The position numbers and the translations under genes were made by a program. 51,800 nt of DNA, taken from assembly GCA_003131635.1 (NCBI GenBank), contig PKVZ01000038.1, positions 2,178 through 53,977 of the forward strand, written 5' to 3'. Each line of letters opens with the position of its first letter. Within the stretch, counting starts at the first letter, position 1. This document shows, in pieces, positions 15,741-32,434 of this stretch. The DNA comes from Acidobacteriaceae bacterium. GTDB lineage: Bacteria > Acidobacteriota > Terriglobia > Terriglobales > Acidobacteriaceae. Under the pieces are notes generated by a model. That model was not told where the DNA came from, did no database searches, and saw only the letters and a program-made list of their open reading frames with translations.

Positions 15741-16168
15741 TATATAGGGACACCAGCATACCGGGGCGGAGGCGCGAACCTATGGGCCTTCGGGTCAGTT
15801 CTCTTCTAGCCCCTCCGAGGCTGCCGTAACCTGTCCGGAGATGACTTATGATTACCGGCCTTAAGTAACGTTTAATACAGTGCGTTCCCGTTGACAGGGT
15901 GAAACCAGTTTGGTACCTTTTAGCAGACATTCACACAGGTCTCTGGCCGAGCTAAGTTCTGCATTCATTATGAATTGCAGACAAGGGAAGTATTGGAGGT
16001 TTCGGCCGTTGATTCCGTTAAAGCAGCAGGGCACGTTAGAAAACTCCATTCCCAAGATGGGAAGACGGGACCCGGAACAATCAGGTTGTCCGAACAGGCT
16101 TTCTGCAACCTCAGAACATTGCCTGGAGTTCCGGCCCTGATCATTACAAAACGGAAGAAGGAAGGCAT
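15741..16168 (+). other. Intergenic region with a long 5' leader of the M23 peptidase gene
   Basis: A good promoter at 15891-15919 (TTGACA, 17-bp spacer, TACCTT) points to the M23 peptidase gene and leaves a leader of about 240 bases. The leader contains a small hairpin (TCTGCA / TTGCAGA, around 15957-15980) and a frame from the ATG at 15970 to 16140, which has no ribosome-binding site or family resemblance. It may be an untranslated leader or a noncoding RNA; I recognise no known class. Confidence 0.4.
15891..15919 (+). promoter_or_regulatory. Sigma-70-type promoter for the M23 peptidase gene
   Basis: The -35 box TTGACA at 15891-15896 is perfect, the spacer is 17 bp and the -10 box TACCTT at 15914-15919 matches four of six positions. 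Transcription would start near 15926. Confidence 0.55.
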
Positions 16169-17080
16169 TTGCAGAAACGCTTCTACATACTTTTCGTGGC
16201 CCGGGGAGACGACGGCCAGTTGCGCAAGATCTCCATTCCAGTCCATTACCTGTACGTATTTGTGGTGGGGGCGGCGATTGGATTTCTTAGCCTTACGGGC
16301 ATCGCCAGTTCCTACACCCGCATGCTGCTGAAGGTTTCCCGCTACAACGAGCTGCGTACCGAAAAAGAGCAGCTGAAGGATCGTTATTCCCGGCTGGAAG
16401 AAGTGGCCAAGGAGCGTGACGTCCAAGTTGCGTCCCTGGGGTCGATTGCCAGTGAAGTATCCGCTCTATACGGGCTAAAATCGCAGCCCACGATGGTCAC
16501 GGCTACGCAGCAGGAAATTCACGACGCCGACGTCACTTCCTCGCTGGACCAACTGGGCGCGTTGCGCACGTCCGCACTCACCGGCGATGCCACGGTTGGC
16601 ATCAGCCTGGGAATGACGCGCAATGCCACCACGGCTGACTGGTACCGCGCCAATGCCGCGCCTAATCTCTGGCCGGTAGAAGGCCAAGTCACAGGAAGCT
16701 TTGGGGAACGCATCGATCCGTTCAACGGGGAAGGCGCTTTTCACAGCGGGGTGGATATCAGCAGCAATTATGGGCATCCGGTCATCGCACCTGCTGATGG
16801 CATAATTTCTTTCGCGGACTTCATGGGGGGATACGGCAAGGCCATCATGATGGATCATGGCCACGGCATCTCAACCCGATATGGCCACCTTTCCGGTTTC
16901 GCCGTCACCCCGGGACAACACGTGCATCGCGGCGACACAATTGGCTATGTGGGTCTCAGCGGACGCTCGACCGGTCCGCACCTGCACTACGAAGTTCGCA
17001 TTAACGACACTCCGGTCAATCCTTACAAATACCTACGTATCACTATTGCTCACAGCGGCGAGTTTCAGACCGGGAGCTAG
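16169..17080 (+). CDS. Membrane-anchored M23 (LytM-type) peptidoglycan endopeptidase
   Basis: The 303-aa protein starts at TTG 16169, preceded by a purine-rich GAAGAAGGAAGG site. It has one N-terminal membrane segment (about 27-50), a coiled-coil stretch (about 55-100) and a C-terminal M23 domain (about 165-295). The zinc and catalytic residues are present: His192 and Asp196 in HSGVD, His240 in RYGH and His271-x-His273 in GPHLHYE. It should therefore be an active metallo-endopeptidase cleaving peptide cross-links in the cell wall, unlike degenerate EnvC/NlpD-type activators. The layout (anchor, coiled coil, LytM) is typical of envelope-remodelling hydrolases. Its long leader is described separately. 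Confidence 0.92.
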   Translation: MQKRFYILFVARGDDGQLRKISIPVHYLYVFVVGAAIGFLSLTGIASSYTRMLLKVSRYNELRTEKEQLKDRYSRLEEVAKERDVQVASLGSIASEVSALYGLKSQPTMVTATQQEIHDADVTSSLDQLGALRTSALTGDATVGISLGMTRNATTADWYRANAAPNLWPVEGQVTGSFGERIDPFNGEGAFHSGVDISSNYGHPVIAPADGIISFADFMGGYGKAIMMDHGHGISTRYGHLSGFAVTPGQHVHRGDTIGYVGLSGRSTGPHLHYEVRINDTPVNPYKYLRITIAHSGEFQTGS

Positions 17081-17084
17081 AGGG

Positions 17085-17220
17085 AACCAGTTCCCGGTTC
17101 TGGGTGCTGGGTTTCTTGCCCTTGCACTCTTCCGCTCGCTTAGGCTAGGTTCGTGGGACGAAAGAAAGTTCCCAGTGCCGGGTTCTCGGTGATTCTGAGG
17201 GCTGAGAACTGAGAACCGCG
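17085..17220. repeat. Low-complexity palindromic intergenic repeat (GAACTGAGAACC type)
   Basis: The gap between the M23 gene and cysE consists largely of permutations of GGTTCT, GGGTGCTGGG, CCCAGTGCC and CTGAGAACTGAGAACC, which can fold back on themselves. A similar element lies at 42744-42800. It looks like a decayed interspersed repeat, not a coding sequence. Confidence 0.45.
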
Positions 17221-17221
17221 A

Positions 17222-17959
17222 ATGCTCAGCTTCTTCCATTCCGTACGCGAGGATGTTGCGGCCGTCTTTGAATCGGACCCTGCCGCTCGTTCCTACGCTG
17301 AAGTGCTGCTCTGCTACCCCGGTTTGCACGCAGTGTGGTTGCATCACCTGAGCCACTGGCTATGGCGCCGTGGCATGCGTTTTCTAGCGAGACTCAATTC
17401 GCAATTCGCGCGTCTGCTTACTGGAATTGAAATTCATCCTGGGGCAGAGATTGGACGGCGGCTTTTCATCGACCACGGCATGGGAACGGTGATCGGAGAG
17501 ACGGCCGTCGTGGGCGACGATGTCACACTTTATCAGGGTGTGACGCTGGGTGGGACCGGGAAAGAAAAGGGCAAGCGCCATCCCACCCTGGGCAACAATA
17601 TCTCGATCGGGTCCGGCGCGAAGCTGTTGGGGAACATCACGATCGGGGACAACTGCCGGGTGGGGGCGGGGTCGGTGGTGCTGCGCAGCGTGCCCGCCAA
17701 TTCCACGATCGTAGGCGTGCCCGGACACATTGTTCTCCGCGACGGCAAGCGTGTGATCATCACCGACCCGAAGGACATCCGCGACCCGCTGTCCGATGTA
17801 ATTATCAAATTGGCCACGGAAGTACATGAGTTGCGTCAGCGCTTTCAGCAACATTCGCACGAGACGCTGGGCGAAGAACCGAATATGACGATTGACGAAG
17901 GAACGTCGACGCCTAATATTTCTCCCGAAGAACTGTTCCAAGACGACTACCAGATCTGA
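17222..17959 (+). CDS. cysE: Serine O-acetyltransferase
   Basis: CysE acetylates L-serine with acetyl-CoA to give O-acetylserine, the precursor for cysteine synthesis. The 245-aa sequence has an N-terminal helical domain ([20 protein letters not shown]) and a left-handed beta-helix of hexapeptide repeats. The active-site region [19 protein letters not shown] and the [19 protein letters not shown] loop are both present. It is the short (EpsC-like) form and has an extended acidic C-terminus ([12 protein letters not shown]). The ATG at 17222 is preceded by repeat-derived sequence with no strong ribosome-binding site. Confidence 0.96.
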
Positions 17960-18019
17960 AGGCAGTGGCCAGTGATCAGTGGCCAGTGTTGGAGCCAGCT
18001 GGCAAGTGGTCACTGCCTT
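17959..18019. repeat. Inverted repeat between cysE and a convergent gene
   Basis: AAGGCAGTG at 17959-17967 pairs with CACTGCCTT at 18011-18019. The loop itself contains tandem GGCCAGTG / GATCAGTGGCCAGTG units. The right arm overlaps the last codons of the convergent 130-aa gene. It could work as a bidirectional transcription stop, but no T-tract follows. Confidence 0.45.
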
Positions 18020-18402
18020 AACCCCATCCAACTTTCCGAGACGACCAGCGAATTGCCGGGATTGTGGGGGTCATATTTCACTGAAGTGGGCAAGCCGAGC
18101 CGGCAGGAGTGCAGGTTGATCCACTGGCGCAGGTAGGTCACGTCTTGCGAGCACTCGTAGGAAACACCCGCGACATCGTACTTGTAGATGAGGAACACGG
18201 CGGAATGATGGCCGTCGCTGGCGGGCAATTCCTGCACATCGATGACGGTACCGTCGGTGATGCGTCCAATGCCGTCGAGCCAGGTACGGCGCTCGCGTTC
18301 GAGATCTGCCGCGTCCTTGGGCTTGCGCCGAAAGAGCGCGTAGGCGCCCAAAGCAACGGCGGTTCCGGCGGCCACTAAAGAATAGATACGAAGTGAATCC
18401 AT
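18010..18402 (-). CDS. Small membrane-anchored hypothetical protein (DUF3592-like)
   Basis: This 130-aa protein has one N-terminal membrane segment (SLVAAGTAVALGAYALF), a charged stretch (RRKPKDAADLERERR) and a beta-rich domain. The features GTVIDVQEL, YKYDVAGVSYECSQDV and VKYDPHNPGNSLV resemble DUF3592-type domains, where a variable first half is followed by a Y-x-P-x-x-P/N pattern. The topology suggests an inner-membrane protein with an outside domain. It is transcribed alone, convergent with cysE. Function unknown. Confidence 0.7.
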   Translation of the reverse strand: MDSLRIYSLVAAGTAVALGAYALFRRKPKDAADLERERRTWLDGIGRITDGTVIDVQELPASDGHHSAVFLIYKYDVAGVSYECSQDVTYLRQWINLHSCRLGLPTSVKYDPHNPGNSLVVSESWMGLRQ

Positions 18403-18616
18403 ACGAAGGGTGAGTGATTCGCAGCTGCGTGCGCGCCACGCTTTCGTTATCAGAATATGACGGAAGCGCGGCAGTTGGAAGTGGTTGTGAGGTTACCGAG
18501 GTGTCAGGCTGTGGAAATCTGCACTGCTGACGGGGCCGACTCGCTGGCGGAAGGGCCAAGCCATGCGATCACGGGCCAGTACTTTTCCACGGGATGAGAA
18601 TCACACAGAGACTGAT

Positions 18617-18826
18617 TTAGCGGGCCATCCAGACTTGATATCCGACGACTGCCATCATGAAAAGCAGGTAAAGGCGAAGAGCCCAGAGGACGATCAGTTC
18701 GGGAGTTTCGAAATGGCGGCGGGGAATGTGGTGTTTCTTGGCTCCGACCAGTTGGTCGTGTTCGAGCGAAGAGAGGACGAGGGTTTGATCGGCAGTGGAG
18801 ACGTGCGCGGTATCCTTTTTGACCAT
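18617..18826 (-). CDS. 69-aa single-span membrane protein cotranscribed with the NRAMP gene
   Basis: The ATG at 18826 lies nine bases after the NRAMP stop, with AGGA upstream, so the two genes should share an mRNA. The product has a polar N-terminal half (residues 1-42) that includes KKHHIPRRHFETPE, followed by one hydrophobic helix (LIVLWALRLYLLFMMAVVGYQVW) and a basic end, giving a predicted single-span protein with a His-rich juxtamembrane patch. I recognise no family. The gene order suggests an accessory or regulatory partner of the transporter (inference). Confidence 0.65.
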   Translation of the reverse strand: MVKKDTAHVSTADQTLVLSSLEHDQLVGAKKHHIPRRHFETPELIVLWALRLYLLFMMAVVGYQVWMAR

Positions 18827-18835
18827 AGGGGAATC

Positions 18836-20197
18836 CTACTTTCCCCCCAGAGCGGCGAAGATGTTGGGGGCGATGATGCTGACGCCGAAGAGAATGCCGG
18901 CGGAGGTCAGAATGAAGACTACAGCCGTTGCCAGTATGTTTGCCCACCATGGACTTATTAAGTCGCCCATGATTTCTTTGTCGTTGACCAGCATGAACAG
19001 AAATACCAGCGCCGGAGGCATGGCGAGAACCGCGACTACGTTGACGATGAGAACTACGTAGACCAACGGGAGGCCGGGGATGAGGACGATGGCGGCAGCA
19101 GCGGCGGCGCAGAGAGTGAGCACGGCGTAGAAAGATTTACCTTCTCCCATGGGAAGGTTGAGGCTGTGCGGTTTGTGGGTGACTTCTCCGAAGGCATAGG
19201 CGGAAGAGGTGGAGATGGTGATGGCGGCGACGATGCCGGCTTCGACCATGCCGAGAGCGAAGAGAGATGCGCCGAAGCGGCCGATGATGGGCTGAAGGGC
19301 CTGGGCGAATTCGGCGGCCTGGAAATTATCGGCGGTCATTTGATGGGCGAAGAGCGGGGCGGTGGCGAGGATGGTGGCGATGGCGGCCGCGGTGGCGAGG
19401 GCGGCGCCGAGAACGGTGTCGATGCGGCCGAAGCGGATGTCTTTGATGGTCATGCCTTTGTCGACGGTGGCGCTTTGCTGGAAGAAAAGCATCCAGGGAG
19501 TGACGGTGGCGCCGATGTCAGCGAGGACGATGAGGAGGACGTCTTTGTTGAAACCGGGAAGCGGTTGCCAGGTGACGAAGGCATGGCCGACGGAGTGCCA
19601 ACTGGGGTGGGTCATGAGCGCGACTGGAATGAAGATCAGGTTGAATATGGCGGCGGCGAGGGTGATGCGCTCCCAGGTCCAGTAGCGGTGAGACATTAAT
19701 GCGCCGTAGAGGATTACGAGCGCAATGAGGATTGCGATCCAGGGGCGGACGCCGAAGAAGCCAAGGCCGGCGCGGATGGCGATGAATTCGGTGATGAGAG
19801 TGAGGAAGTTGCCGATGCCGAGGTCGATCATGGAGAACCATCCCCAGAAAGGGCCGAAGCGGTCGAAGATGAGTTCGGCGTGGCCGCGATGGGTGGCGGC
19901 GCCGAGGCGGACGGTCATTTCCTGGACGACGATTGCCATGCAAAAAGTGAGGACGACGAATGGGAGAAAAAAACCGACGCCGAACTTGGCGCCGGTGGCG
20001 GCGTAGGCGACCATGCTGGGGCCGTCATTTTCGCCGAGCATGACGAGGACACCGGGACCGACAAGCAACCACAGGAGACGCGCTTTGGAGGAAAAGCCGC
20101 GGCGGGCGCGGGCGGCGGAGACACGGACGCGGTCGTGGGCGCGGTCAACGTCTTCGTGAGTGATTACTACTTCGGCTTCGGTGGCGACGGGCTTCAT
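18836..20197 (-). CDS. NRAMP-superfamily divalent metal transporter with altered metal-site motifs
   Basis: The 453-aa protein has about 11 hydrophobic helices and aligns with NRAMP transporters over TM1 (LLVGPGVLVMLGENDGPSM), TM3 (QEMTVRLGAATHRGHAE) and TM6 (ADIGATVTPWMLFFQQSA). NRAMPs are proton- or ion-coupled importers of Mn or Fe. The usual TM1 DPGN reads DGPS here (Asp58 kept, Asn replaced by Ser61) and the TM6 MPH reads TPW (Met replaced by Thr233, His by Trp235). Loss of the metal-ligating Met is expected to change selectivity. The ATG at 20197 has no clear ribosome-binding site; the frame stays open up to 20258 (IGGDDLHSRRALEL), so a longer N-terminus from a rare start is possible. 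A metal-regulator-type operator lies at 20295-20308. Confidence 0.88.
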   Translation of the reverse strand: MKPVATEAEVVITHEDVDRAHDRVRVSAARARRGFSSKARLLWLLVGPGVLVMLGENDGPSMVAYAATGAKFGVGFFLPFVVLTFCMAIVVQEMTVRLGAATHRGHAELIFDRFGPFWGWFSMIDLGIGNFLTLITEFIAIRAGLGFFGVRPWIAILIALVILYGALMSHRYWTWERITLAAAIFNLIFIPVALMTHPSWHSVGHAFVTWQPLPGFNKDVLLIVLADIGATVTPWMLFFQQSATVDKGMTIKDIRFGRIDTVLGAALATAAAIATILATAPLFAHQMTADNFQAAEFAQALQPIIGRFGASLFALGMVEAGIVAAITISTSSAYAFGEVTHKPHSLNLPMGEGKSFYAVLTLCAAAAAAIVLIPGLPLVYVVLIVNVVAVLAMPPALVFLFMLVNDKEIMGDLISPWWANILATAVVFILTSAGILFGVSIIAPNIFAALGGK

Positions 20198-20278
20198 CAG
20201 TTCGAGCGCGCGGCGGCTGTGCAGGTCATCTCCACCGATGAGTTCGGCGAGGATCTAACCCCAGCAGAGATTAGCGTA

Positions 20279-20308
20279 AGTATACACGAAGAAATAAACT
20301 ATAGTTAA
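20279..20308 (-). promoter_or_regulatory. NRAMP gene promoter with overlapping metalloregulator operator
   Basis: On the minus strand, TTAACT (20303-20308) as -35 and TATACT (20279-20284) as -10 are separated by 18 bp. The near-perfect palindrome TAAACTATAGTTAA at 20295-20308 overlaps the -35 box, which is the position expected for repression. The same palindrome type lies at 21084-21097 and 32421-32434. Confidence 0.6.
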
Positions 20309-20406
20309 CTTATGGGCCGTTTGTGGGGGTTAATTAAGATGCCTTGTGGGGCAAGGCTGTGGCGAGACAGGGATGCTTCGATATCTCTCCGCTGAGGATG
20401 ACAGAG

Positions 20407-21063
20407 CTACCTAGTGGGCGATAGCCAGACGCGCTCGGCGGCGGCGCGACCGAGGGAGACGTTGCCGGAGGAGGTGGAGAGAGTGAGGGTCTGGTCGTAG
20501 TTTCGTTCGAGGATGCGCAATTTTGCCGCGGGACGAATGCCGCGGGCTTCGAGGAATTCGAGCAGGCGGCGGTCGCGCTCGTAGATTCCGCTGACCGTGT
20601 AGGCGATGCCGGGCTGGGCGTCGGCGAGCAGGAGCAAGCCACGATGGCGCCGGCTGGCGGGGCTTTCCATCTCGCTCATGTTGCCGTGAGGACAGATGCC
20701 GCCTTTGCCGAGTTTGGCGAGGAGCTTGGCCTCGAAGTCTGGGGAGACGGCGTGTTCGAGGCGCTCGGCTTCATCGTGGACCTTCCACCATTCCATCCCG
20801 AAAAGTTCTGCTAACATGCGTTCGATAAGGTGATGGCGGAGGGTGAGCTTGCGGGCGATTTTGCGGCCGGCAGCGGTGAGGCGGACGTGACCATCGGCCT
20901 GAACGCGGACGAGGGAATCTTTTTTCAGACGGCGCACAGCCATGGTGACGGCGGGAGCGGAGACCTTCAGCCAGTCGGCGAGACGCGCGGAGATAACGGA
21001 TTCGCCTTCGCTCTCGGCCTCGAGGATGGCTTTGAGATAATCTTCCTTGGAGACGGTGATCAT
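20407..21063 (-). CDS. DtxR/MntR-family metal-dependent transcriptional regulator
   Basis: The 218-aa protein has an N-terminal winged helix (residues 1-65, VSAPAVTMAVRRLKKDSLV as recognition region), a dimerisation and metal-binding domain (70-140) and a C-terminal SH3/FeoA-like domain (about 150-218). Candidate metal ligands are Asp8, His77, Glu81, His96, Glu100, Glu103 and His104. Glu100 stands where DtxR has Cys102, the MntR-type (Mn-preferring) state, but position 11, Glu in B. subtilis MntR, is Lys. It should bind DNA when loaded with metal and repress uptake genes. It sits upstream of the NRAMP gene on the same strand with its own promoter, which carries the same palindrome, so autoregulation is likely. 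Confidence 0.9.
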   Translation of the reverse strand: MITVSKEDYLKAILEAESEGESVISARLADWLKVSAPAVTMAVRRLKKDSLVRVQADGHVRLTAAGRKIARKLTLRHHLIERMLAELFGMEWWKVHDEAERLEHAVSPDFEAKLLAKLGKGGICPHGNMSEMESPASRRHRGLLLLADAQPGIAYTVSGIYERDRRLLEFLEARGIRPAAKLRILERNYDQTLTLSTSSGNVSLGRAAAERVWLSPTR

Positions 21064-21070
21064 TTTGTCG

Positions 21071-21097
21071 ATTATACGATGGGTTAAGCATGGTTAA
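21071..21097 (-). promoter_or_regulatory. Promoter and operator of the DtxR/MntR-type gene; probable leaderless mRNA
   Basis: A perfect minus-strand -10 box TATAAT at 21071-21076 lies only seven bases upstream of the ATG at 21063. Transcription should therefore start at or next to the start codon and no ribosome-binding site is present. The palindrome TTAAGCATGGTTAA at 21084-21097 lies between the -10 and -35 positions. Confidence 0.6.
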
Positions 21098-21113
21098 TAA
21101 GAAGGAAAAAATC

Positions 21114-21237
21114 TTTACTACAGAGGACACAAAGGAACACAGGGTAAGGCAGAAGTTAGAAGTCAGAATGCAGAAGTAAGAATTTTAGGTGGGGAGCGGG
21201 TGTTTTACTTCTGCATTTTGACTTCTGACTTCTTACT
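21114..21237. repeat. Intergenic repeat region with long inverted repeat
   Basis: First comes a stretch resembling the widespread ACAGAGGACACAAAGGAACACAGGG type repeat (21114-21149). It is followed by a large imperfect inverted repeat: arm 21152-21180 (GAAGTTAGAAGTCAGAATGC...) against arm 21204-21237. The region lies between the divergent regulator and purD genes. It could form a hairpin of about 25 bp in RNA or a cruciform in DNA. Confidence 0.5.
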
Positions 21238-21294
21238 TTCCCGGCGGCGTTTGACAGCTTTCTTCGTCTCCCCTAACCTTGACTCTCTCTGATT

Positions 21295-22566
21295 ATGAAA
21301 ATTCTGGTTTTAGGTAGCGGTGGGCGGGAGCACGCGCTGGTGTGGAAGCTGCGGCAGTCGGCGCGGGTTTCGAAGGTGTATTGCGCGCCGGGGAATGGAG
21401 GGATCGCGGACGAGGCGGATTGTTTGCCGGTGGAGTTGAAGAGTCTGGACGCGATGGTGGCGCTGGGACAGTCGTTGAAGCCGGATTTGACGGTGGTTGG
21501 CCCGGAATTGCCGCTGACGTTGGGGGTGGTGGACGAGTTTACGCGGCGCGGGTGGCCGGTGTTTGGGCCGACGAAGGCGGCGGCGCAACTGGAAGCGAGC
21601 AAGAGCTTCGCGAAAGAATTCCTGCAGCGGCATCGGATTCCGACGGCGGCGTTCGCAATTTGCGATTCGATGGAGGAAGTGCGTGACGCGTTGGCGCACT
21701 TTCATGCGCCGGTGGTGGTGAAGGCGGACGGGCTGGCGGCGGGCAAGGGCGTGGTGATCGCGGCGAGCAAAGAAGAGGCAGCCAGCGCGGCGGCCGAGAT
21801 GTTGAGCGGCAAGATGGTGGGCGAGGCGGGCGCGCGGGTGGTGCTGGAAGAATTTTTGAAGGGCGACGAGCTTTCGTTTCTGGTTTTGAGCGATGGGGAG
21901 CGGGTTGTGCCGCTGGTGGCAGCGCGGGATCACAAGCGGGTGGGCGATGGCGATACGGGGCCGAATACTGGAGGGATGGGCGCTTATTCTACTGCCGACA
22001 TTGTGGATGAGCAGATGCGGGATTGGCTGGTGAATCACATTGCGAAGCCGGTTGTGGCGGGGATGAAGGCGGAGGGCGCGGAATATAAGGGCGTGCTGTA
22101 TTGCGGGCTGATGATGACTGCACTCGGTCCGATGGTGCTGGAATTTAATTGCAGGTTTGGCGATCCGGAGACGCAGCCGATTCTGATGCGGCTGGAGAGC
22201 GATCTGGTGGATGCACTGGAGGCGTCGATCACAGGTCGCGTGAGCGAAGGGGACTTCAAGTGGTCGCAGGATGCGTCGGTGTGTGTGGTGATGGCGTCGG
22301 GAGGGTATCCGGGGACATTTGAAGTGGGGAAGAAAATTTCGGGACTTGATGAGGCTGGAGCAGTTGAGGGAGTTAAGGTGTTTCACGCGGGAACTTCTAA
22401 GCACGATGGGGATTTTTTTACCGGCGGTGGGCGTGTTTTGGGAGTGTCGGCGCGGGCTGCGGAGTTGGAGACAGCGGTGTCGCGAGCGTACGAGGCGTGT
22501 GGGAAGATTCGTTTTGAAGGAGCGCATTATCGGAAGGATATTGCGGGGAGGGCGGTGAAGAAGTAG
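21295..22566 (+). CDS. purD: Phosphoribosylamine-glycine ligase
   Basis: PurD joins 5-phosphoribosylamine and glycine with ATP, the second step of purine synthesis. The 423-aa product has the family start (MKILVLGSGGREHALVWKL), the ATP-grasp core (VVVKADGLAAGKGVVIA around residues 138-155), DHKRVGDGDTGPNTGGMGAYS and LEFNCRFGDPETQ with metal and ATP ligands. Full length with no anomalies. The C-terminal B/C region FFTGGGRVLGVSARA is present. purE follows on the same strand after 197 bases holding two interspersed repeats. Confidence 0.97.
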   Translation: MKILVLGSGGREHALVWKLRQSARVSKVYCAPGNGGIADEADCLPVELKSLDAMVALGQSLKPDLTVVGPELPLTLGVVDEFTRRGWPVFGPTKAAAQLEASKSFAKEFLQRHRIPTAAFAICDSMEEVRDALAHFHAPVVVKADGLAAGKGVVIAASKEEAASAAAEMLSGKMVGEAGARVVLEEFLKGDELSFLVLSDGERVVPLVAARDHKRVGDGDTGPNTGGMGAYSTADIVDEQMRDWLVNHIAKPVVAGMKAEGAEYKGVLYCGLMMTALGPMVLEFNCRFGDPETQPILMRLESDLVDALEASITGRVSEGDFKWSQDASVCVVMASGGYPGTFEVGKKISGLDEAGAVEGVKVFHAGTSKHDGDFFTGGGRVLGVSARAAELETAVSRAYEACGKIRFEGAHYRKDIAGRAVKK

Positions 22567-22568
22567 CA

Positions 22569-22611
22569 GAGCTGCGCTCTGCGGACAGCCGAGGGCGGCT
22601 GTCCCCACATG
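22569..22611. repeat. Intergenic hairpin repeat family A, copy 2
   Basis: The copy starts GAGCTGCGCTC and contains GGACAGCC-gagggc-GGCTGTCC, a perfect 8-bp stem with a 6-base loop, followed by CCCACATGAG. It lies directly after the purD stop. Nearly identical copies are at 25174-25219 and, interrupted, at 33201-33275. Confidence 0.75.
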
Positions 22612-22656
22612 AGCCGTTCAGACTAATTAGTTCAGCGACAGTGATGTGCCAATATG

Positions 22657-22711
22657 GATCCTTCGACTGGTTTTGCTTCGCTGACGCGAAGCAAAATCCT
22701 CGCGCAGGATG
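22657..22711. repeat. Intergenic repeat family C (CCTTCGACT...CAGGATGAC)
   Basis: The outer parts CCTTCGACTGG and CGCAGGATGAC flank an inner hairpin TTTTGCTTCGC-tga-cGCGAAGCAAAA. Related copies are at 20366-20402, 33226-33249 (inside a family A copy) and 46606-46664. Confidence 0.65.
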
Positions 22712-22763
22712 ACAATTTTTATCCGATATTGAGAAGAATCTTACAAAGTTAACAAGAGGACTC

Positions 22764-23261
22764 ATGAGCAAAATATTGGTTTCGATTGTGATGGGGAGTG
22801 ATTCTGATTTGGAGATTATGCGCGAGGCGGGGAGGGCGCTTGAGGAGTTTGGGATCGGGTATGAGATGGATGTGACGTCGGCGCACCGGTCGCCGGACCG
22901 GACGGCGGACTTCGCACGAAAGGCCGCTGGACGCGGCATTCAGGTAATCATTGCCGGTGCCGGCGGGGCGGCGCATCTGGCGGGGGTGATTGCAGCGCAT
23001 ACGACGTTGCCGGTGATTGGGGTGCCGATTCCTTCGACTTCGTTGCAAGGGATGGATTCATTGTTGGCAACTGTGCAGATGCCGGCGGGAATTCCGGTGG
23101 CGACGGTGGCGATTGGGAAGCCGGGGGCGACGAACGCGGGGATTCTGGCGGCGCAGATGATTGGGTTGGGGGATGAGGCGATTGCGAAGAAGCTGGAGGA
23201 GCATAAGGAAAAGTTGGCGCGGGGGGTGGAGGAGAAGTCGAAGAAGTTGCGGAGTTCGTAG
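22764..23261 (+). CDS. purE: N5-carboxyaminoimidazole ribonucleotide mutase
   Basis: PurE (class I) interconverts N5-CAIR and CAIR in purine synthesis. The 165-aa sequence has the family N-terminus ([21 protein letters not shown]), [16 protein letters not shown] with the active-site His, [20 protein letters not shown] and [20 protein letters not shown]. Length is normal and the C-terminus is basic. It lies downstream of purD; no purK is visible in the window. Confidence 0.97.
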
Positions 23262-23278
23262 GCATCTTCGGGGTTGAT

Positions 23279-23594
23279 ATGACAATTTGGGTCGTACTGC
23301 TTGGATGCTGTTTCTTAACGCCTGTCTTTTTGGCTCTGCAAATGGCGAGGGGTGCTCACGTTGGTGTCGGCGGTTATGTATCAAGTCTGACGGTTGTGAC
23401 TGCTCATCGGTCTTGGTGGAGCGGGAGCGATGTTGATGCTGCATAACAGAGTGTTCTGGTGCTCAGAAGGGCGTTCCGCCTCTTTACAAAATACTATTCT
23501 ACTGACAGCATTCGTCCTCGAAACTCTATGGATAGGTGTCACCGGAATCATAGGATGGCGGGTGGTAGCGATGGTGCTACGTTTGCTTGCCTAG
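23279..23594 (+). pseudogene. Small membrane-protein gene broken by a +1 frameshift
   Basis: From the ATG at 23279 one frame encodes 55 residues starting [20 protein letters not shown] and then loses hydrophobic character before a TAA at 23444. From about 23400 the next frame continues with LLIGLGGAGAMLMLHNRVF and two more hydrophobic helices (ILLTAFVLETLWIGVTGIIG) to a TAG at 23592-23594. Removing one base near 23399 would give a protein of about 105 aa with four membrane spans. It is either a recent pseudogene, a sequencing error or a translational frameshift. The end overlaps the convergent galU stop by four bases, as expected for a real 3' end. Confidence 0.6.
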
Positions 23595-24475
23595 AGCTTC
23601 AATCCCTTTAAATATTCGCGGAAGGGGGCGCCGAGGTCTTCGCGTTTCAGGGCGAACTCGACGGTGGCCTTCAGGAAGCCGAGTTTGTCGCCGGTGTCGT
23701 GGCGGCGGCCTTCGTAGACGTAGGCGTACATTTTTTCTTTTTGCAGGAGGAGGCGCATGCCGTCGGTGAGTTGGAGCTCGCCTCCGGCGCCGGTGGGAGT
23801 TTCGGCGAGGCAATCGAAAATTCCGGGAGTGAGGATGTAGCGGCCGATAATCGCCAGGTTTGACGGCGCTTCTTCCGGCTTGGGTTTCTCCACCATATTC
23901 TTGATTTCGAAAAGGCGCTCGCCGAACGGGCTATCGACGGGCTTTACATCGAGCACACCGTAGGACGAAATCATTTTGCCTTCGATGACCTGCGTGGCGA
24001 GAACCGAGCATTGCTTCTCGTTAAAAACTTCGACCATTTGCTTGAGGCAGGGGACTTTGGCGTCGATGACATCGTCGGCGAGGAGGACGGCGAAAGGCTC
24101 ATTGCCGACCATTTCGCGGGCCATGAGGACTGCGTGGCCGAGGCCGAGAGCTTCTTTCTGGCGGACGTAGGCGACGTAAATCATGTCGGAGATGGAGCGG
24201 ACGATCTGGAGCAGATCATTCTTGCCGCGCTCTTCGAGCATGCGTTCGAGTTCGTAGCTGACATCGAAGTGGTCTTCGATGGCCTGCTTGCCGCGGCCGG
24301 TGATGATGAGGATTTGGTTGCAGCCGGAGGCCATGGCTTCTTCCACGCCGTATTGGATGATGGGTTTATCGACCAGCGGGAGCATTTCTTTGGGCTGGGC
24401 TTTGGTTGCGGGCAGGAAGCGAGTGCCGAGGCCGGCGGCGGGGAAAACGGCTTTACAGACTTTCATCTTCTTCAT
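23591..24475 (-). CDS. galU: UTP-glucose-1-phosphate uridylyltransferase
   Basis: GalU makes UDP-glucose from UTP and glucose-1-phosphate for polysaccharide, lipopolysaccharide and trehalose synthesis. The nucleotidyltransferase signature AAGLGTRFLPATKAQPKEML lies at the N-terminus, followed by PIIQYGVEEA, VLLADDVI and IGRYILTPGIFD. I place the start at the ATG at 24475 (MKKMKVCKAVFPAAG), which matches the usual GalU N-terminus and gives 294 aa. An in-frame TTG at 24499 would add eight residues. Confidence 0.95.
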   Translation of the reverse strand: MKKMKVCKAVFPAAGLGTRFLPATKAQPKEMLPLVDKPIIQYGVEEAMASGCNQILIITGRGKQAIEDHFDVSYELERMLEERGKNDLLQIVRSISDMIYVAYVRQKEALGLGHAVLMAREMVGNEPFAVLLADDVIDAKVPCLKQMVEVFNEKQCSVLATQVIEGKMISSYGVLDVKPVDSPFGERLFEIKNMVEKPKPEEAPSNLAIIGRYILTPGIFDCLAETPTGAGGELQLTDGMRLLLQKEKMYAYVYEGRRHDTGDKLGFLKATVEFALKREDLGAPFREYLKGLKL

Positions 24476-30770: not shown

Positions 30771-32360
30771 CTAGAACTCGATATGGGCGCGGAACGAGGG
30801 GACGAGGACGGGACCGCGGTCGCGGTTGTAGCCGGGGTCGTTGATATGCTGCAGGCCAGGGGCGACGTAGATACCTCGCCAGACGTGGGCGGTATAGTAG
30901 ATCTCAATAATATTTTCGCGGCCGTAGTTGAGCCCGCCATCGCCGAGGAGGAAGCCGAGGCCGCCGTCGGCGAGGTAGGTTTGATGATCCTTAGCGATGG
31001 CGTTGGAGACGAAGGCGATTCCGGCGCGGTCTTGTTTGCGATGCCACCATGCGCCGTTTGCGCCTAATCCCTCGGCGAAAGTTTGATCGACCTCCGTGTA
31101 GGCGAAGGACTCGCTCTTGCCATTATCCCAGCCGAAGCGGGCGAACGCGGTGAGATAGGGTGTGAGGTTCTGTTCGAAGTTGATACCGAATCCGTATTTG
31201 CGGGTGATGTGCCAGGGGTGGTTCGTGACGTCTGGGACCATCTCTGGCGTCGGGGCCGAGTGATCTTCAAACTGAATAATCGCATCGCGATAAATGCCCA
31301 TGTTGGCGTAGTTGGTGTAGGCCAATAGACGGACGACTCCTTCTTTCTTCGGAATCACACCGTGGCGCAATTCGTATTCGAAATTTTCTGCGTGTACCTG
31401 CCAGGGGCGCCATACCAGATTGATTCCGTTTGCGACCTCGGGCATGAGGCCTTCGGCGAAGCGGAAACCCCAGTTGCGATCTTCGAAGTCGGCGGTAGCG
31501 CCGACGGTGTAGCCACGGGTGTCGGCGGCATAGTCCCAGGCGCCGTTGTTGTCGGTGGTCCAGTTGATGAATTGAAATTTGGTATCGGAGGCGACTGAGT
31601 TGACGTCGAAAAAATCGGGCAAGCTGAATTTGCCGAAGCGGAGTTCGAGGCGGCGACGCGGGAGTTCGTCGAAGAGTGAGAGATAGCTGCGTGTATTTTC
31701 GACTTTATCTTTGCTCAGGGCGAAAACCTTATGAATCATGCCGCGCCCCAAGTACGGGGCTTTGCTGAGGAGAGGATTGCGCACGATATCGAGATCGGTA
31801 TTGCCGGCGAGGCCGAGGCCGGTGCTGAGAGCGGCGCCGCCGGCTTCTTCGATGTCGACGAGAAGTTCGGTGGAATTGTTGAGGCGTACGCCGGTGTAGA
31901 GGGTCATGACGCGGGACGTCGCTTTCTCGTAGTTGGGGCCAAGGCTATGGGCGCCGCTGTAGTCGGCAGGGAACGGGGGATGAGTCTGGAAGATGAAGTT
32001 TGCCTGACCGGAGAGCCAGAAGCGGGAGTCCTTGAAATGAGGGAACATGGCTTCGGTGGATTCGTCAGGTGGAGGATCGGCTACGTTGGATGGGCCGGAC
32101 TGCAGCGTAGTATCGGACTTTGCCGAGGGCGCGCCGAGCTGCTGGGCTAACATTGGGAGAACAGAGAACGCGAACATCAGGAGCAGAGCCAGGCAGGGGC
32201 GCAGATTGGCCGTGAATACGGGTTTCGGGACGACTCCACGATCGGATTGGGGCGAAGATAAAGCCGACGCCATATTGAAAATGAATTTCAATTTCATAAT
32301 TACAGGGTAGAGGACCAGGGTAATCAGCTCTGTGCCTGATGTCACCATCCGCGGTGACAT
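30771..32360 (-). CDS. OprB-type (carbohydrate porin family) outer-membrane porin
   Basis: The 529-aa protein starts at the ATG at 32360, chosen because AAGGTG lies seven bases upstream; the ATG at 32297 lacks a ribosome-binding site. A signal segment (LRPCLALLLMFAFSVLPMLA) is preceded by an unusually long N-terminus. The mature part has alternating beta-strands with aromatic girdles and the OprB-like C-terminal block IEIYYTAHVWRGIYVAPGL, QHINDPGYN and a final Phe (RAHIEF). It forms a passive outer-membrane channel. Its promoter carries the palindrome found upstream of the DtxR/MntR-type regulator and NRAMP genes, so the substrate may be a metal ion, as known for MnoP of Bradyrhizobium (inference). 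Confidence 0.82.
   Translation of the reverse strand: MSPRMVTSGTELITLVLYPVIMKLKFIFNMASALSSPQSDRGVVPKPVFTANLRPCLALLLMFAFSVLPMLAQQLGAPSAKSDTTLQSGPSNVADPPPDESTEAMFPHFKDSRFWLSGQANFIFQTHPPFPADYSGAHSLGPNYEKATSRVMTLYTGVRLNNSTELLVDIEEAGGAALSTGLGLAGNTDLDIVRNPLLSKAPYLGRGMIHKVFALSKDKVENTRSYLSLFDELPRRRLELRFGKFSLPDFFDVNSVASDTKFQFINWTTDNNGAWDYAADTRGYTVGATADFEDRNWGFRFAEGLMPEVANGINLVWRPWQVHAENFEYELRHGVIPKKEGVVRLLAYTNYANMGIYRDAIIQFEDHSAPTPEMVPDVTNHPWHITRKYGFGINFEQNLTPYLTAFARFGWDNGKSESFAYTEVDQTFAEGLGANGAWWHRKQDRAGIAFVSNAIAKDHQTYLADGGLGFLLGDGGLNYGRENIIEIYYTAHVWRGIYVAPGLQHINDPGYNRDRGPVLVPSFRAHIEF
32339..32360. promoter_or_regulatory. Perfect hairpin covering the porin start codon
   Basis: ATGTCACC-atccgc-GGTGACAT is a perfect 8-bp inverted repeat with a 6-base loop. 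On the minus strand the first three bases are the porin start codon, so folding of the mRNA would hide it and affect translation. Confidence 0.45.
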
Positions 32361-32406: not shown

Positions 32407-32434
32407 AATATATCAGGTAGTTAACTATGGTTAA
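32407..32434 (-). promoter_or_regulatory. Porin promoter with metalloregulator-type operator
   Basis: On the minus strand TTAACC (32429-32434) and TATATT (32407-32412) are 16 bp apart. The palindrome TTAACTATGGTTAA at 32421-32434 overlaps the -35 box as at the NRAMP gene. A further half-site ATAGTTAA is at 32395-32402. Confidence 0.55.

Follow-up and report, generated by a model that had tools for sequence, protein, structure and literature searches.

An NRAMP-related transporter of a soil acidobacterium with a variant metal site, a small partner gene and a putative MntR-type regulon

The choice of manganese over magnesium by NRAMP transporters has been explained largely by one methionine, and published signatures separate the canonical NRAMPs (DxxN-A/CxxM) from the NRATs (DxxN-AxxT) and the NRMTs (DxxG-TxxA/T) (PMC8806188). 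EleNRMT, the NRMT of Eggerthella lenta, is described in the same report as carrying Mg and Mn uncoupled from protons. Moreover, NRAMP-related proteins have been described as diverse and paraphyletic, lacking the canonical motifs (PMC12873925, PMC9606685), and one acidobacterial member, A. capsulatum NrmT, gave full rescue of a B. subtilis mutant defective in Mn uptake (PMC4072509), so that an NRAMP relative without the methionine is not new in itself. The window analysed here, that is, the whole stretch of 51,800 nucleotides of contig PKVZ01000038.1 (assembly GCA_003131635.1), comes from a soil acidobacterium and encodes on its minus strand an NRAMP-related transporter of 453 aa (18836..20197), which was characterized by its open reading frame (ORF), Pfam, alignment of the metal site, a structural model and Foldseek. 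With a probability of about 0.6, it is proposed to be an inner-membrane Mn2+ importer that works with a detached helper helix and is under MntR-type repression, the latter also covering an OprB-family porin.

Family placement and metal site of the transporter

To begin with, the protein scored 208.7 bits against the Pfam family PF01566 (Nramp), for which the curated cut-off is 29.8, and 97.7 bits against the NCBIfam MntH model, for which it is 430. Its best match by sequence among solved structures was EleNRMT (7qia, E 9.5e-51), with the canonical MntH chains ranking below it (6.8e-12 to 1.5e-9). An AlphaFold2 model built from 38 sequences (predicted local distance difference test, pLDDT, 84.1; predicted template-modelling score, pTM, 0.86) had transmembrane segments 1 and 6 (TM1 and TM6) broken close to their motifs, and its top match in Foldseek was again EleNRMT (8.6e-19, template-modelling score 0.86 by target length), DraNramp coming lower (3.2e-14).

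The TM1 motif reads D58-G-P-S61 and the TM6 motif A230-T-V-T233-P-W235, that is, DGPS and TPW where canonical NRAMP and MntH proteins have DPGN and MPH. The positions of the metal site were mapped by alignment with EleNRMT, E. coli MntH and DraNramp. Asp58 (codon 20024-20026 of the minus strand, as for the codons below) falls on the universal NRAMP Asp (D55 in EleNRMT), Ser61 (20015-20017) on a position held by Asn in canonical proteins and by Gly58 in EleNRMT, Ala230 (19508-19510) on one held by Ala in canonical proteins and by Thr224 in EleNRMT, and Thr233 (19499-19501) on one held by Met in canonical proteins and by Ala227 in EleNRMT. Furthermore, the first His of TM6b is replaced by Trp235 (W229 in EleNRMT), Q240 stands at the position of EleNRMT N234, the Glu of TM3 (EleNRMT E133) is retained as E137, and the conserved Gln of TM10 (EleNRMT Q379) has become Asn386 (19040-19042) in 30 of the 30 clade rows counted. 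Each of the mapped positions showed a single state in these 30 rows. In an alignment of 38 sequences, made up of the window protein and 37 further sequences that are 60-93% identical to it, the residues E56, N57, D58, P60, S61, M62, E137, A230, T233, W235, M236 and N386 were all invariant (38/38), which excludes chance or sequencing error as the source of the site changes. Since the mapped positions are invariant in both alignments, the loss of the signature Asn and Met is, by this comparison, genuine and fixed in the clade, and it is accompanied by a fourth change, that of the TM10 Gln to Asn.

The first-pass annotation had described the motif changes and the absence of the signature Asn and Met correctly, as the alignment and the 38/38 invariance bear out. 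It had missed the change in TM10 and, as presented below, the gene for a small partner protein and an operator in common with a porin. Its identification of Asp58 as the retained classical ligand also holds. A Met or Asn that could stand in for the lost ones was sought, and none was found at the ligand positions of TM1 or TM6: N57 (Asn54 in EleNRMT) adjoins D58, and N386 occupies the TM10 position near the site, outside those of TM1 and TM6. The metal would probably be held by Asp58, by the backbone around Ala230 and by the hydroxyl or amide ligands Ser61, Thr233 and Asn386, in a pocket that would be wider and wetter than that of MntH. Moreover, with Trp235 and Gln240 in place of the TM6b histidines, transport would be uncoupled from protons, as has been argued for EleNRMT.

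The tree comprised 72 rows, was rooted on two canonical proteins and included one solved NRMT; L133-L135, which are duplicates or near-copies of other rows, and L194, L196 and L203, which are plasmid loci without annotation, were left out. The window clade was supported at 100/100 (31 rows, in which one gene, L126 and L031, is counted twice) and sat within a clade of 46 rows (99/93). The latter also takes in proteins of Acidithiobacillus, Acidiphilium and a Citrobacter plasmid, a second type from acidobacteria (L113, L114) and ten long proteins encoded on plasmids. EleNRMT fell in a clade of 16 rows (95/91) and the window protein in its sister clade of 54 rows (97/92), a placement that is tentative because EleNRMT sits on a long branch flagged by the program. 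The DxxS-AxxT signature, invariant in the aligned clade, matches none of the three published ones. Thus, the earlier suggestion of a resemblance to NRAMP-related Mg transporters stands as regards the nearest relative, which is EleNRMT by sequence and by Foldseek, but not as regards the NRMT signature, with DxxS found instead of DxxG and AxxT instead of TxxA/T. By these comparisons, MntH is more distant from the window clade than is EleNRMT, which transports Mg and Mn, and the window transporter is an NRMT-related variant in a clade so far without a name.

The AxxT of TM6 is shared with the plant NRATs, Ala230 and Thr233 matching Ala238 and Thr241 of SiNRAT, and would suit a transporter of trivalent ions such as Al3+. 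Such a cargo is, however, very improbable, given that the DxxN half of the NRAT signature is absent, that the position of the extra acidic TM3 residue of NRATs (Asp140 in SiNRAT, Thr130 in DraNramp) is, by offset from E137, an invariant T133, and that the position of NRAT Ser68 is Pro60.

Two side observations concern related sequences. Another NRAMP-related clade (L115, L116, L117, L121, L125, L131, L200 and L208) retains the TM6 Met, as MPW, and its TM1 is mostly DxGS, with Cys in place of Ser in L200. In addition, a contig filed as Methylacidiphilales (L036) has a clade gene at 91% identity to the window protein, which suggests mis-binning or a recent transfer.

A small membrane protein beside the transporter

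A gene for a small membrane protein of 69 aa with one C-terminal TM helix (18617..18826, minus strand), recognized by profile, conservation and model, begins 9 nt past the stop codon of the transporter. In its model, residues 41-68 form a confidently predicted helix, and a second helix, at 11-30, is predicted only weakly. The window protein had no match in Pfam or NCBIfam, and scattered matches of single family members to both databases were weak and were discarded as noise. In a profile search, the small gene was found in 106 of 112 loci, many of which duplicate one another, and in 77 of the 80 named genome-contig loci, these being the best 80 of 547 relatives. Among the three misses, L094 and L097 end at a contig edge and L078 lacks the gene, and in one locus counted as having it (L073) the frame extends to 196 aa and may be broken. 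Moreover, the residues invariant in 30 sequences include L21, E22, Q25, W48, R51, Y53, M57 and V61, and the dN/dS ratios to the window gene, computable for 6 of 10 pairs, were 0.11-0.17, which are rough values because dS was high (0.87-2.57). Purifying selection on the small gene is indicated by these substitution ratios.

Co-occurrence was assessed in 250 genomes drawn evenly from the class, with cut-offs of E 0.001 for the small protein and E 1e-100 for a window-type transporter, as a draw over the whole phylum had given the small protein in 3 of 199 and was too sparse. A total of 35 genomes had the small protein and 32 the transporter, all 32 lying within the 35, and the two matches were at most 239 nt apart in 30 of the 32. 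In the other two (G053 and G289), the small gene lies elsewhere in the genome, so that the pair co-occurs without linkage. Three genomes had the small gene and no transporter at the cut-off (G324, G336 and G407), and no transporter appeared in the stretches examined for G324 and G407. The small-helix gene was well conserved at the loci L145, L146, L148 and L151 (in G407, G053, G289 and G324, respectively), again with no transporter in the stretch examined.

Similar genes were also found outside the window clade. In A. caldus (WP_014003700.1) and A. cryptum (WP_011930828.1) such a gene follows the transporter (profile E 7e-7 and 3e-5, respectively), and one was also detected in the second acidobacterial type, at E about 2e-4 for L113 and 5e-4 for L114. 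Furthermore, the Citrobacter freundii plasmid pPSV has an unannotated small ORF with an LRxY helix (L191, 4118-4348), a weak profile match (E 0.0068). This ORF is flanked by the NRAMP gene on one side and by a gene with a CBS domain on the other.

In long relatives, a comparable helix appeared at the C-terminus of the transporter itself. From 80 plasmid records with a match, 20 were examined, and the statement on fusion rests on the ten annotated NRAMPs of more than 500 aa examined among them, all of which had this helix (consensus WRMPPL...LR.YLV). A direct match to the small-protein profile was obtained for one of five long plasmid NRAMPs tried (L193), and it was weak (E 0.063). In profile-profile comparisons, the profile of the window small protein matched that of the other separate small proteins (P 1.7e-9), and the latter matched the fused C-termini (P 9.5e-5), while a negative control with the C-termini of eight NRAMPs without the extension gave P 0.032 and 0.16. 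By hydropathy, an additional segment separates TM11 from the last helix in the long plasmid NRAMPs, which would orient the last helix like the small protein and place the Arg-rich end on the inside. The helix, separate or fused, is present in every examined row of the 46-row clade, including L031, the gene of G053, where the small gene is unlinked; L029, L026 and the remaining rows were covered by the small-protein profile search of the loci. Relatives apparently carry the helix, as far as these profiles tell, either as a separate small gene or as a fused C-terminal helix.

We infer that the 69-aa protein would act as a detached helper helix beside the transporter. It may instead be an independent membrane protein, such as a stability factor or a regulator of another target, that merely travels with the transporter, a possible but rather doubtful reading that would be compatible with Mn import. 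This would fit the two genomes in which the genes do not adjoin, the three with the small gene and no transporter at the cut-off, and the moderate homology of the window small-protein profile to the fused C-termini (probability 55.6%, P 1.2e-4). The last point counts against the helper helix, and so does L078, which has 901 nt downstream of the transporter yet no small gene. On the opposite side stand the presence of the small gene in all the transporter genomes of the class draw, mostly close by, the apparent fusion with the same orientation in all ten long plasmid NRAMPs, and the fact that the helix follows one clade of the tree.

Regulator, operator and porin

Upstream of the transporter gene lies a gene for a DtxR/MntR-family regulator of 218 aa with a C-terminal FeoA domain (20407..21063, minus strand), characterized by Pfam and alignments to Protein Data Bank entries. 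It aligns over nearly its full length with 5zr4, SloR and ScaR, which are Mn-responsive regulators; its alignments with the entries of DtxR and IdeR end at about residue 128. The ligand positions Met10 and Cys102 of DtxR correspond to D8 and E100, and Asp and Glu at these positions form the Mn-type pair of MntR (PMC4805248). E100 is present in 39 of 39 and D8 in 35 of 39 sequences (the window regulator and 38 near relatives), in agreement with the earlier remark that an apparent Mn-type regulator accompanies the transporter. A DtxR-like match was found near 47 of the 80 loci, 38 of which scored above 240 bits and nine of which were weaker or cut off. The 38 high-scoring regulators lay on the transporter strand in all cases except L108, where the strand is opposite.

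A predicted operator, TTAACTATAGTTTA, lies upstream of the transporter (20295..20308, minus strand) and shares positions with the first hexamer of a promoter-like sequence, TTAACT-18-TATACT (20308..20279); this sequence was the only one found by the promoter scan, and the mean in shuffled sequences was 0.8, so about one is expected by chance. A second predicted operator, TTAACCATGCTTAA, lies upstream of the regulator gene (21084..21097, minus strand), through which the regulator is putatively autoregulated. With up to three mismatches allowed, the word TTAACYATRGTTAA preceded the transporter in 61 of 81 cases (1/81 in shuffled sequences) and the regulator in 30 of 38 (1/38); these counts are inflated by shared ancestry, and they were made on the very regions that had supplied the motif. 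However, ancestry does not explain why the operator is shared, as the same word precedes two different genes.

In the genome of the window, exact TTAACYAYRSTTWA sites were found at four places, upstream of the transporter, the regulator, an OprB-family porin and an outer-membrane beta-barrel gene, when 0.16-0.40 are expected. Two of the four lie in the regions that defined the motif, and the porin and beta-barrel sites are independent of it. Only exact sites were used, because a one-mismatch search for further members of the regulon gave ten places, fewer than the 19 of a reversed control pattern. The porin gene (30771..32360, minus strand; OprB 80.9 bits) encodes 529 aa in its longest reading, the true start being perhaps further in, and its predicted operator is the perfect palindrome TTAACCATAGTTAA (32421..32434, minus strand). 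From the 30 best porin loci, 29 had enough upstream DNA, and 26 of these had the operator with at most two mismatches (19 exact, the window's included), compared with 1/29 in shuffled sequences. The porin is a putative member of the same regulon on this evidence. The fourth exact site (contig C209 of the same genome) lies upstream of a gene with a CarboxypepD_reg domain and an outer-membrane receptor-like beta-barrel (L246, 1775-3601, minus strand), which may belong to the regulon too.

In the proposed circuit, plentiful Mn2+ would lead the MntR-type regulator to bind TTAACYATRGTTWA, overlapping the -35 hexamer of the predicted transporter promoter, and the bound regulator would shut off the transporter, its own gene and the porin, which would otherwise admit Mn2+ through the outer membrane. 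The same genes could be read as an iron system, in which the DtxR-family regulator senses Fe2+ and the porin and the outer-membrane receptor bring iron to a Fe2+ importer. The regulator is indeed homologous to IdeR and DtxR, it has Lys11 where MntR has a ligand Glu, an OprB-family porin, FeoP, is described as accompanying the Fe2+ system of Acidithiobacillus (PMC2631029), and one exact operator precedes the receptor-like gene. Nevertheless, iron import appears decidedly unlikely, with ligands of the Mn type (D8 and E100) instead of Met and Cys, near full-length alignment to 5zr4, SloR and ScaR but not to DtxR and IdeR, and a transporter without a soft Met ligand.

Other observations were made in the window and its relatives. 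The DNA that separates the regulator from the next divergent gene contains a 38-nt inverted repeat (21142-21242; arms 87% complementary, spacer of 25 nt), and around position 18000 the GC skew passes from about 0 (at most 0.08) to 0.14-0.30, which lasts to the end of the profile. Copies of the Acido-Lenti-1 RNA were found in L055 (2269-2314, 8305-8350 and 8639-8684), L042 (4778-4823) and L113 (805-850). Matches to cytidine-deaminase and chemokine-receptor chains in the structure search and to LonC and KIND in Pfam were weak and were set aside as noise.

Metal cargo and comparison with known systems

Manganese is the likely physiological cargo of the transporter, being favoured over Mg and Ca because of the regulation described above, a paralogue with the NRMT signature and the lack of Mg riboswitches in the loci scanned. 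In particular, the M-box, a Mg riboswitch that marks a subset of the NRMTs, was found in none of the 35 clade loci scanned (35 of the 80), and a cmscan of window positions 16000-24000 gave no Mg riboswitch. Its four matches, which would have been the only candidates for riboswitch control, were eukaryotic miRNA models below their gathering scores, drawn by the inverted repeat, and were rejected as spurious chance hits. On the sister branch, an M-box was found in 8 of 15 loci, namely one of two of the second acidobacterial type (L114) and 7 of 13 of the long plasmid group, to which L194, L196 and L203 were assigned by similarity only. Another was present at L198, in the part of the tree that holds EleNRMT, and none at L001 or nine other acidobacterial NRMT-like loci. 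In L114, the M-box (1086-1264) precedes an NRAMP gene of the sister type, and this gene is accompanied by a gene for a small helix and by a match to an OprB porin.

The genome of the window has two NRAMP matches, neither with canonical motifs. The second, L001, shows the NRMT signature (NDAGG/TTIAPW) and has no operator, and therefore the two may divide Mn and Mg between them. The genome (88.5% complete) had no match to CorA, MgtE or ABC-3, P-type Mg pumps not having been searched for, and CorA was found in one of 37 genomes (this one and 36 relatives), which is apparently unusual for bacteria. Some NRAMP-type protein may therefore supply Mg.

Published mutants bear on the site itself. EleNRMT T224A, a change that yields the residue present at Ala230, had no detectable Mg transport and kept Mn transport with a raised Km (PMC8806188). 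In DraNramp, polar substitutions of Asn59 are reported still to permit Mn, and in the M230A background mutations of Q378, the position of Asn386, raised the preference for Mn (PMC13060092).

Several further points pull the other way. Many substitutions of DraNramp Q378 are reported as deleterious for Mn (PMC13060092), and EleNRMT Q379A strongly compromised transport (PMC8806188), so that function of the window transporter rests on Asn386 serving at TM10. DraNramp M230A, M230S, M230T and M230G gained Mg import, M230T scoring above the wild type (PMC13060092), and SiNRAT, with its AxxT, transports Mn, Mg and Ca (PMC10115441); the chemistry of the site is therefore compatible with Mg. Moreover, the regulator has Lys11 at the position of Glu11, a further ligand of site A in B. 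subtilis MntR (PMC4805248), and the NCBIfam MntR and DtxR models match it far below their curated cut-offs, so that the label MntR-type rests on the D8/E100 pair. Finally, 33 of the 80 loci had no DtxR-like match, several with little upstream DNA, and 20 of the 81 upstream regions, three of them shorter than 150 nt, had no operator within three mismatches.

One alternative is a Mg2+ or mixed Mg2+/Mn2+ importer, that is, a functional NRMT with a variant site, in which the MntR-type control only limits the entry of Mn. The closeness of EleNRMT by sequence and fold, the Mg import gained by DraNramp M230T and found in SiNRAT, the lack of CorA and MgtE matches in the genome and the scarcity of CorA among its relatives would all suit such a protein, but it is unlikely in view of the T224A phenotype, the scanned loci free of M-boxes, the MntR-type regulon and the paralogue L001, which could serve Mg. 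As for the first-pass suggestion that the protein may carry Mg or Ca, or bind Mn in another way, the latter option is thus favoured, with Mg compatible with the site and both Mg and Ca disfavoured as the physiological cargo. The probable function of the transporter is therefore Mn2+ import, uncoupled from protons and assisted by an accessory helix.

A broader reading, advanced tentatively and somewhat less probable than its alternative, is that this NRAMP branch is a two-component one, in which an 11-helix carrier needs an extra helix. A separate small gene would encode this helix in acidobacteria, some acidophiles and the Citrobacter plasmid. In the relatives from actinobacteria, alpha- and betaproteobacteria and Alicyclobacillus it would be fused to the carrier, giving about 13 predicted helices. 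The branch would have a Mg line with the M-box and a TM6 Thr, and the window's Mn line with MntR-type control, a new all-oxygen D-S-A-T-N site and an OprB porin, with which it would form a Mn pipeline from the outer to the inner membrane. The window clade itself appears to provide a natural MntR-regulated protein without the methionine, with four site positions changed together. As the nearby sister branch is often controlled by a Mg riboswitch, the two together make a natural paired experiment on the metal choice of the fold.

The DxxS-AxxT signature, the helper-helix gene and the operator shared with a porin were not found in the open-licence literature, the supplementary alignments of the NRMT papers being outside its scope, and no accessory subunit of an NRAMP-type transporter was found there in short result lists. 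Should the small protein prove to be a subunit, no earlier accessory subunit of such a transporter is known to us. Among the described systems, A. capsulatum NrmT (Acp2977), set beside the window protein by its description, is likewise acidobacterial, without a Mg riboswitch and able to restore Mn uptake, but it lies downstream of an MgtE-like fragment (PMC4072509). Plant NRAT (SiNRAT, 8ont) shares the AxxT of TM6 and a replaced TM10 Gln (Ser in SiNRAT), whereas the window protein has no extra TM3 Asp, has Ser for the TM1 Asn and matches its fold much more weakly; no NRAT row was included in the tree. Canonical MntH/NRAMP proteins (DraNramp, E. coli MntH) have in common with the window protein the fold, the TM1 Asp, MntR-type control and the probable Mn substrate, and differ in that the latter lacks the Asn, Met, His and TM10 Gln, has about 20% identity to them in the fold search and stands on a long branch. 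In Bradyrhizobium, MnoP and MntH are co-regulated, with a porin family and a regulator (Mur) that differ from those of the window. The arrangement is similar in that an outer-membrane Mn protein stands beside an inner-membrane NRAMP (MnoP: PMC9334652). Finally, EleNRMT (7qia, 7qji) shares with the window protein the Asp, the TM3 Glu, the Trp in place of the TM6b His and signature positions without Met or Asn. It has Gly58, Thr224, Ala227 and Gln379 and 11 helices where the window protein has Ser61, Ala230, Thr233 and Asn386, and, unlike EleNRMT, the window system has a separate, putative helper helix and an apparent MntR-type regulon.

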